Origin: Thiomargarita sp.
GTDB lineage: Bacteria; Pseudomonadota; Gammaproteobacteria; Beggiatoales; Beggiatoaceae
DNA: 34,488 bases
NCBI GenBank assembly: GCA_020720115.1
Contig: DYPD01000033.1
Coordinates: forward strand, 1 to 34,488
Reading direction: 5' to 3'
Below, one piece after another: positions 4,602-34,488 of this stretch; the first letter of the stretch is position 1; every line of letters begins with the position of its first letter. The position numbers were made by a program, and so were the translations under genes. The notes beneath the pieces are model-generated. The model was not told the DNA's origin, did not search any database, and worked only from the letters and a program-made list of their open reading frames with translations.

Positions 4602-5558
4602 ATGGCGGCTTTATTCGCTCCCTGCGCGCCTTACGCAACTCACTCGCTCAAAGTCACGCAAATCCATACCCTGTATCTGGAAGAATCTGGCAATTCCAAT
4701 GGCTTGCCAGTGGTTGTGCTGCACGGGGGACCGGGCGCAGGCAGTGCGCCTACACACAGACGTTGGTTTGATCCCAGCCGCTACCGCATTATCCTGTTCG
4801 ATCAGCGCGGCTGCGGGCGTTCTACGCCGCACGCGGAATTGAGCGACAACAGCACCCAGGCATTGCTGTCGGATATTGAAAACATCCGTACTTACTTAGG
4901 CATTGATCGCTGGGTGGTGGCAGGGGGTTCTTGGGGGACGACTTTGGCGCTGGCTTACGCGCAACGTCATCCAGAGCATGTATTGGGCATGATTTTGCGC
5001 GGCGTGTTTTTATGTCGCCAGCACGATCTGGATTGGCTATACGGCGCGGGCACTTGTCAGTTTTTTCCCGCTGAATGGGAGGCTTTTCTCCAGGCTTTAC
5101 CGGCAGAATTACGCGCTGATCCCATTACCGGTTATTATCAATTGTTGACCAGCAAAGACCCAGAGGCGCGCCTTGCCGCTGCCCGTGCTTGGGCGACTTG
5201 GGAAGGGCGTCCCGCCACACTGTTGCCCAACGAGGCAGTGGTCGCTGCCTTTACCGAGGCGCATACCGCGCTCAGTCTTGCACGCATTTCAACGCATTAT
5301 TTTGTTCATCACTGTTTTTTGCGGGAAAACCAGTTATTGACCGATCTCGGCAAAATTCAGCATATTCCTGGCATTATCGTGCAAGGTCGTTATGACATGC
5401 TGTGTCCGCCGGAAAATGCTTGGCGCTTGCAACGCGGCTGGGCGGCGGCGGAATTAAACATCATCCCTGATGCCGGACATTCTGCTTATGAACCCGGCAT
5501 CAGCGCCGCGTTGGTGGATGCCGCAAACCGCCTACTGACACTTTTAGACGCGAACTGA
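4602..5558 (+). CDS. pip: Proline iminopeptidase (alpha/beta hydrolase)
   Basis: VVLHGGPGAGSAPTHRRWFDPSRYRIILFDQRGCGRSTPHAELSDNSTQALLSDIENIRTYLGIDRWVVAGGSWGTTLALAYAQRHPEHV. Confidence 0.95.
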   Translation: MAALFAPCAPYATHSLKVTQIHTLYLEESGNSNGLPVVVLHGGPGAGSAPTHRRWFDPSRYRIILFDQRGCGRSTPHAELSDNSTQALLSDIENIRTYLGIDRWVVAGGSWGTTLALAYAQRHPEHVLGMILRGVFLCRQHDLDWLYGAGTCQFFPAEWEAFLQALPAELRADPITGYYQLLTSKDPEARLAAARAWATWEGRPATLLPNEAVVAAFTEAHTALSLARISTHYFVHHCFLRENQLLTDLGKIQHIPGIIVQGRYDMLCPPENAWRLQRGWAAAELNIIPDAGHSAYEPGISAALVDAANRLLTLLDAN

Positions 5559-6175: not shown

Positions 6176-6816
6176 ATAATCTCTATCGCCGCGCTGTTTA
6201 TCTCTGTGCGGCTCATACCTTAGCACAAACGCCAGAAGACGCTGGTTTGGAAGTGGCTTTTGCGGGTCGCTCTAACGCTGGAAAATCCAGCGCAATCAAT
6301 GTGATATGCGACCAAAACAGCCTCGCTCGCACGAGTAAAACCCCGGGGCGCACGCAACAAATTGTATTTTTTACCCTGGATGCCAACCGTCGTTTGGTGG
6401 ATTTACCTGGCTATGGTTACGCCAAAGTGCCAATGGCGGTCAAACTGCATTGGCAAAAAACCCTAGAGCGTTATTTGCAAGAACGCAAAAGTCTGCAAGG
6501 GCTGATTTTGTTGATGGACATTCGCCATCCCTTCACCGACTACGACACCCACATGGTGCATTGGTGTTTGGACTCGCACATGCCGGTACATATTCTGCTC
6601 ACCAAAGCCGATAAATTCAGTCGCGGCAAAGCCATGAGCCTGTTGCTGCAAGTGCGCACTGAGTGCGAAAAACTCTCTGCCGGACGCGATACCCGCGTTA
6701 CTGCGCAACTGTTTTCCGCGTTAAAAAAAGATGGCTTAGACGATGCCTGGCAGTGCTTGGATAGCTGGTTACAAGTCGGTGTTGAACTTGAAATGCCAAT
6801 GCTAACAGACATTTAG
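6172..6816 (+). CDS. engB: Ribosome biogenesis GTP-binding protein EngB/YsxC/YihA
   Basis: [41 protein letters not shown]...[12 protein letters not shown]...LLTKADK; ATGA overlap with msrB stop. Confidence 0.95.
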
Positions 6817-31877: not shown

Positions 31878-32081
31878 TTACCGCCGTACTGAAACATGAA
31901 CCCGCCGAAATCCCGTGTTTGGTGCAGCGGACGGCGGTGACACACAGGGATGTCCGGCGGCAACCCGTGCATCTTGGGATTTTTTCAAATCCGCGTAAAT
32001 CGCCCACAGGTCGAAATTAAAGCGGGCGGCATGGTTTTCCCTCGTCTGGCGGACTTCATCAACGATTTCATCATTCAGCAT
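31878..32081 (-). CDS. Probable antitoxin partner of the PIN-domain toxin (67 aa)
   Basis: MLNDEIVDEVRQTRENHAARFNFDLWAIYADLKKSQDARVAAGHP... matches the small 'DEIV.EVR..RE..A..F.yDl..I...L...q' antitoxin type; ATG overlaps the toxin stop. The tail CVSPPSAAPNTGFRRVHVSVRR looks non-native. Confidence 0.65.
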   Translation of the reverse strand: MLNDEIVDEVRQTRENHAARFNFDLWAIYADLKKSQDARVAAGHPCVSPPSAAPNTGFRRVHVSVRR

Positions 32082-32553
32082 TGTCTTCCCCCAATAATTC
32101 TTCCGGCGTACAGATAAACGGTAGAAACAAGCCCTTTTCTTCAAGAAAAGCAGCTATTTTTCTTTGCAACTCTGGATTTGCGATATGGCGGCAATTCCAG
32201 GTCAGCAAATAATCCACGCCGTACAATGTCGCAATTGCGATGTGTAGCGCGTCTTCCGCTGCTTTTGCCGGTACAATGCCGTTCTGCACCAATTCAGCGG
32301 CAATGCCGACGGCGTGTTCGTCAATTAGAATCAAGGGAATCTCGGCGACTGCCGCCAGCCGTTTTTGCGCGGCAACCGGGTCACCGGCGGCACACTCCCG
32401 CAACACTGGCTCCGATACAAATAACTTGTATTGTTCGCGTGATTCCCACCAAGCCAGAGTAATCTGTTGATGCGCCGCGCCCAAGATGGTTTTGCTTGGT
32501 TTTGCGGTAAGGTAGCTGATTACCGAGGTTTCAAGATAGATTTTGCGTTTCAT
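32071..32553 (-). CDS. PIN-domain (VapC-like) toxin
   Basis: MKRKIYLETSVISYLTAKPS...LFVSEPVLRECAAGDPVAAQKRLAAV...KAAEDALHIAIATLYGVDYLLTWNCRHIANP; PIN acidic residues present. ORF track extends to 32577 but 32553 is the natural start. Confidence 0.85.
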   Translation of the reverse strand: MKRKIYLETSVISYLTAKPSKTILGAAHQQITLAWWESREQYKLFVSEPVLRECAAGDPVAAQKRLAAVAEIPLILIDEHAVGIAAELVQNGIVPAKAAEDALHIAIATLYGVDYLLTWNCRHIANPELQRKIAAFLEEKGLFLPFICTPEELLGEDNAE

Positions 32554-32573
32554 AACGTATGGGATAATCCGCG

Positions 32574-34488
32574 TCACTCTACCTTGAAAAACGTCCCAAT
32601 TTGCTTAACTAATCCCATGAGTTCACCCACCAATGCCTTAGCGTTCTCGAAGTCAGCCGCTAATCCTTTGAAGAATCGTAGCACAGTTTTTGCAATACCT
32701 TTGCCTGCTACCGGGTCTTGTGCGGCTTCAGCAATTTCTTGGACTTTCTTTAATGCTTCCGCTTTGTCTTCGTCGCTCAATTCACCGGCATTAGTTAATA
32801 GCCTGTGCAAATTTTGCAGGGTTTCTTTGATACCGATTTGCTCACCGGTTGCGGCGGGCATTTGATTGACAGCATTTTGAACCTGCCCACTAATTTCGCC
32901 TAGATTCAAGGTACTTCCAATGATGGGTGAATTTGTAATTGTTTGGTTTCCACTGTTACTCATATAGTTTCCTGATATGTAGAAGTTGAATTGCTCTTGT
33001 CTTTTGTCAGGTGGCATAATTCTCAGTAGTTTTGACACATCGTAAGATATGCCATTCTCATGGATATATTCATTTCTGCCCCGCCCCTCATGTGCCAATA
33101 AAGTTCTGAATGGTGCTCGCCCAGCGTTGCCTGGTAAATGCACCCACTCTTTATAGGGTAGGTCTCTCATGCTTGCTAGAATCTGCGTTACATCATCATA
33201 AAGCGATGAAAAGTAACGATTGGCATGTTGCCCATTCACCCATAAAGACAAACGGCGGGCATGGTAATCAGCCTCTATCAAAGCATCGGGGTTAAAATTA
33301 TTATGTCGCAACTGTGTGCCATTTTGCCACACCATATTTAAAAAGATTTGCGTATGCCGCTTGACAATTAAGTTACAAATAACATGACGCGGCAGAAAAC
33401 TTTCAAAATCCAAATCAAACCGCATAGCTGAATCATAATCAAAGCTAAGTTTTTCTGGTCTATCCGATGAAAGCAGATCAGGGAAAATAAAAATATTTTC
33501 TCTATCAGAGATGCGATAACACAAATTAAATTCTATCATTGCGTCAATAATAAAACGGCAACGTTCCGCTGGATAGGTTAATTCGTGACCATCATTGCCA
33601 ATTGTTTTTATAGATAGAATATTTACAACATCTGAGTAAGATAATTCACCAAACTGTTTTTTTGCAATTTCTGAGAATAATAGTGTATATATTCCATATG
33701 TAATCCAGCGAGGATTTAGAACAAATTCATTAAGCGTGGTCAGTTTTGGAAAATTTGAAATCTCCCCCAAATTATCCATGTATTGTAATAACCATTGACG
33801 ATCTTGACCACCACTTTTAGGAATATTATGTCTGTCGCATAAAGCATAGAAATCATCTTTTCCAAGAAATGACTGTTTTACAGAAAGATTTCTTAATTCT
33901 TAAAGAACAGCAAAATGTGCATCTTCAAAGCGCACCTGTCTTTTATCAAGTTCACATAATTGATTTATAAAATCGCGCTTAAATCTTTCAAACTCTGCGT
34001 GGTATGTTTCTTTATATTGAGTACAAGAAACCGGATAAAAACCAATAATGCTTGGATATTTATCTTGTAAACGGAACATGTCTATATTGACTTGCGCCAA
34101 ATCCGCTTTATTACCAACAATCAAAATTGGCGCATTCCCACCAAAAGCGCGAACATGCTCTAACCAATATTCAGTTTGTTGATTTGCGTTAATATCAGTA
34201 CGGGCATTTAGCACTATTACATACAAGCACTGTGTACGCATGAAAAATTGGTGGGTAGCATGAGCCATAACTTGACCGCCAAAATCCCAGAAATGCGCAA
34301 TAATCTCAGTATTCGGTACCGACCATTCACTGATGTTGATGCCCGCCGTCATAGGTTCTACGCCTGGCACTACTTCTTTTCCATTGAATATACGGATGAG
34401 AGAAGTTTTTCCTGTTTCTCCATAGCCAAGAAAAATGGTGCGTACACGGTTAAGGCTTTTTTGCGTGCGTCCCTGATATTGAGCTAAA
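32574..34488 (-). pseudogene. ROCO protein (Roc GTPase + COR + C-terminal beta/coiled-coil module), interrupted by an in-frame TAA at 33900-33902; N-terminus outside window
   Basis: Minus-strand open reading from the window edge: LAQYQGRTQKSLNRVRTIFLGYGETGKTSLIRIFNGKEVVPGVEPMTAGINI...AHFWDFGGQVMAHATHQFFM...ILIVGNKADL (P-loop, DFGG, NKAD). After TAA the same frame continues ELRNLSVKQSFLGKDDFYALCDRHNIPKSGGQDRQWLLQYMDNLGEISNFPKLTTLNEFVLNPRWITYGIYTLL (COR-like). Confidence 0.8.

Follow-up and report, generated by a model that had tools for sequence, protein, structure and literature searches.

A ROCO gene of Thiomargarita sp. with a probably recent nonsense codon early in COR-A

At one end of a contig of Thiomargarita sp., two open reading frames on the minus strand encode a Roc GTPase half and a COR half, which raises the question whether a single ROCO gene has been broken here or whether the two halves are made and used separately. 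The window, by which we mean the whole stretch of DNA analysed, is an entire contig (G000:C61, 34,488 bp), one of the 185 contigs in the genome. The original prediction placed both frames in one register with a single TAA between them and offered four readings, namely a recent nonsense mutation, readthrough, a functional two-polypeptide arrangement and a sequencing error.

Reading the minus strand from the contig end (34487) to the TGA yielded a single frame of 637 codons with one internal stop, the TAA at 33902-33900, the rest of the frame being open (Table 1). This confirmed that the two listed frames are one, and likewise that the 40 codons separating the TAA from the ATG at 33779 contain no further stop. 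The break had also been placed exactly at the Roc/COR junction, which did not hold: the second residue behind the TAA already corresponds to position 11 of the COR-A model, and the stop therefore lies about nine positions inside the model. Since the contig, and with it the window, ends within the gene, the gene lacks its 5' end here and the GTG at 34370 is not its true start. A search with the N-terminus of a relative found the missing N-terminal part on no other contig and matched only a paralogue on contig C10, so that the 5' part of the gene is absent from the assembly.

Table 1. Features of the interrupted ROCO frame (window coordinates)
Feature	Position	Strand	Details
Roc GTPase half	33903..34487	(-)	195 codons, open at contig end; P-loop GYGETGKTS, WDFGGQ, NKAD; PF08477 5e-22; 4wnr 2e-38
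In-frame TAA stop	33900..33902	(-)	about nine positions into COR-A model; sense residues in this column of relatives
COR-A stretch after the stop without any ATG/GTG/TTG	33780..33899	(-)	40 codons
COR half (COR-A, COR-B, C-terminal helical tail)	32577..33899	(-)	441 codons; COR-A 1.7e-20, COR-B 5.2e-15; 3dpt 1.3e-25
First possible restart ATG downstream of TAA	33777..33779	(-)	no clear Shine-Dalgarno; duplex energy -2.7 kcal/mol
Normal TGA stop of the ROCO frame	32574..32576	(-)	from reading of the frame

Both halves proved to be Roc and COR sequence, as had been claimed, each domain match in Pfam lying far above chance. The part before the stop contains a Roc G domain (PF08477, 78.8 bits against a cut-off of 27), and COR-A (PF16095) and COR-B (PF25497) follow after the stop in the same frame. 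The best structural counterparts are an archaeal Roco (4wnr) for the Roc half and the COR of C. tepidum (3dpt) for the COR half. In the window gene, the in-frame TAA keeps Roc and COR from forming a single continuous polypeptide; by descent the locus is a ROCO gene, but it does not encode an intact ROCO protein. The C-terminal tail matched no Pfam family above cut-off. In PADLOC, this tail (32577-32880, minus strand) weakly matched the candidate-defence model PDC-M14B (E=0.0029), and it is similar to the tail of another ROCO locus, L047. A weak PIN-domain frame (32071-32577, minus strand; Pfam E=0.0053, below cut-off) starts at the ROCO stop codon, and a short frame behind it could be its antitoxin.

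The best relatives are 44-53% identical to the window gene over Roc-COR, and nearly all carry both domains in one open frame. Nearly all of the 29 family relatives that were aligned also read from Roc into COR in one frame, with E, Q, K, T, D and other, mostly polar, sense residues in the column of the stop. Comparison with orthologues in related strains had been proposed along with the original prediction; across some 100 related loci, Roc and COR were almost always joined. When about 110 loci were scanned for stops and frames, all but a few ran from Roc through COR in one frame. In-frame stops occurred in three main Roc-COR copies in total (positions 192, 196 and 346; position 192 is a TAG in L027, position 346 lies in L091), and two loci of the same genome as the window, C10 and C89, showed frameshifts. 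The premature stop is absent from the relatives, none of the close ones among the 29 aligned and the roughly 110 scanned sharing it. Stops or split frames were also seen in several further ROCO loci of this family, where broken copies are thus not rare.

The TAG of L027 (2362-2364 of G029:C209, from another genus of the same family) lies four residues upstream of the equivalent of the window TAA; we treated it as a probably independent pseudogene. A stop hotspot at the Roc/COR border was considered and rejected, given only three in-frame stops overall and no close relative with the same TAA.

Of the 58 genomes searched as relatives, the genome of the window included, 28 contained ROCO matches, nearly all of these 28 belonging to the same family; a sample of 369 genomes from across the class gave matches in only 9 at a stricter E-value, three of which were again members of this family. 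The ROCO frames of a genome from the same genus (G001) contain no stops. Neither the family genomes nor GTDB contigs yielded an orthologue closer than about 53% identity over full Roc-COR, viral contigs yielded no relatives, and ROCOs on plasmids are at most about 30% identical to the window gene. A Roc sequence about 70% identical to that of the window occurs in Candidatus Electronema aureum (L097, about 5000-5420), where the match ends abruptly and unrelated sequence follows; it may represent a ROCO that has been truncated or else a join made in assembly.

Production of two functional polypeptides would require that Roc ends at the TAA and that COR is made from the ATG at 33779, by reinitiation or at a new start. 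Both halves are conserved, and the COR of the C. tepidum Roco has been crystallised as a separate construct (3dpt; PMC6337361), which would be in line with such an arrangement. Against it, Roc and COR are fused in about 100 relatives and a conserved split occurs in none; the restart lies 40 codons downstream, no ATG, GTG or TTG being found within that distance after the TAA, it has no clear Shine-Dalgarno sequence, and starting there would lose part of COR-A. Taken alone, the predicted Shine-Dalgarno pairing (-2.7 kcal/mol) is a weak point, since some window genes fall within the same range. As the approximately 110 loci showed isolated lesions only, we found no lineage that appears to keep Roc and COR as separate chains, and a naturally split ROCO was rejected. 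A functional two-polypeptide arrangement is thus very unlikely, and it seems slightly less probable still that a Roc-ended chain and a COR chain restarted at the ATG are translated separately and reassemble. If the split were functional, Roc and COR would form a natural pair of separate chains with which the control of Roc by COR in LRRK2-like proteins could be studied; the evidence argues against this.

Readthrough of the TAA would give a low level of full-length ROCO and would fit the conserved frame downstream. However, TAA is the terminator of 14 of the 25 well-supported window genes and the commonest there, on which ground an alternative code or TAA suppression was rejected. TAA is generally the least leaky stop codon and is not known to have a dedicated recoding residue in bacteria. 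Moreover, no relative has a stop in the same column, the TAG of L027 lying at a different codon, four residues upstream. Readthrough is therefore scarcely credible, the least probable of the readings.

The age of the stop was estimated from the sequence on either side of it. A regression of COR on Roc identity across 325 pairs of intact relatives placed the window gene at average divergence (mean residual z=0.05), and of the residues invariant in its eight closest relatives it has kept 43 of 48 in COR and 50 of 53 in Roc. Neither measure revealed excess COR divergence, and thus no relaxed selection downstream of the stop was seen, as is expected if the stop is very recent. Since 4.8% of possible substitutions create stops, the finding of just one among 637 codons (1,911 bp, indels ignored) leaves room for about 3% neutral change at most (95% level). 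With the COR half conserved as well as the Roc half and neutral change limited in this way, these data indicate that the stop is recent or else a consensus error.

In the latter case, the TAA would be a sequencing, assembly or strain-mixing artefact of the draft genome, and the cells would carry one ordinary ROCO gene. The conserved COR half would agree with this, as would the position of the gene at a contig edge, where the consensus is weakest, and the state of the assembly (185 contigs, 4.4% contamination); related multi-copy genes can, in addition, yield a chimeric consensus. Cross-assembly is unlikely because the closest paralogue, at C10, is only 49% identical to the window gene. This paralogue carries a single frameshift in COR-A. 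At a second ROCO locus, C89, frameshifts interrupt the LRR-Roc part and a DDE transposase lies nearby, and at the third, C38, the ROCO frame is open to the contig end, so that two of the three other ROCO loci and, counting the window gene, three of four are damaged. In contrast, 71 conserved genes spanning 83 kb, set against their orthologues in a closed relative, contained no single-base lesion. Three candidates were noted among them: two proved to be spurious extensions of the frame ahead of its start, and the third was an ammonium-transporter-like gene (L160, about 6628-6790 of G000:C9) split by a short MITE-like insertion with terminal inverted repeats GACTTGTTGCGG...CCGCAACAAGTC. About 0.54 Mb of the genome itself served for estimating lesion rates.

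As three of the four ROCO loci are damaged and the 71 conserved genes free of single-base lesions, the concentration of lesions in ROCO genes favours relaxed selection, and thus probably real decay of an accessory conflict-type family, over a high rate of random sequencing error. Selection acts more strongly on the conserved genes than on ROCOs, so that the former are an imperfect, biased gauge of sequence error, and for this reason error or strain mixing keeps a small share of the probability, remaining unlikely but clearly ahead of separate chains or readthrough.

Among the readings offered, a recent nonsense mutation is best supported, by the fused relatives, the undecayed COR, the lack of a good restart and the broken sister ROCOs. 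We consider it probable that a ROCO gene of the bacterial AP-GTPase/ROCO conflict type, one of several paralogues decaying in this genome, recently gained a nonsense codon early in COR-A, and we infer both that the cells themselves carry the stop and that function has been lost. Translation would most likely end after the Roc domain. In the ROCOs studied, COR contacts the switch II loop of Roc, brings about dimerisation and links Roc with the module at the C-terminus; as a product ending at the TAA would have none of these, it is probably non-functional. The finding would then show little more than that accessory ROCO genes come and go in filamentous sulfur bacteria.

Like the prokaryotic ROCOs of Chlorobium tepidum (CtRoco) and Methanosarcina barkeri (Roco2), the window gene has a Roc with WDFGGQ and NKAD followed in frame by COR-A and COR-B, and its halves find their best structural matches in solved ROCOs from bacteria and archaea; it differs from them by the one in-frame stop in COR-A. 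Prokaryotic Rocos have been described with an LRR-Roc-COR layout (PMC6337361), whereas in L043 and L046, the closest intact relatives checked here, the N-terminus measures about 240-270 residues and gave neither an LRR nor any other match in Pfam. N-termini of about 240 residues occur in several of the loci L043-L048, a number of them being rich in Ala (YAADAA-like runs); according to a review, LRRs are present in every prokaryotic Roco identified. Bacterial proteins that combine an AP-GTPase and COR with variable C-terminal modules are described in the literature as conflict systems (PMC8195603), and the relatives of the window gene share with these their variable C-terminal tails and numerous paralogues; the window gene itself differs in being interrupted, in having its N-terminus off the contig and in a tail without a Pfam match above cut-off. 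With its single premature stop, otherwise intact frame and intact relatives, it resembles bacterial nonsense pseudogenes, and the locus is most likely an ordinary, newly disrupted copy of a known family rather than a new two-part protein.
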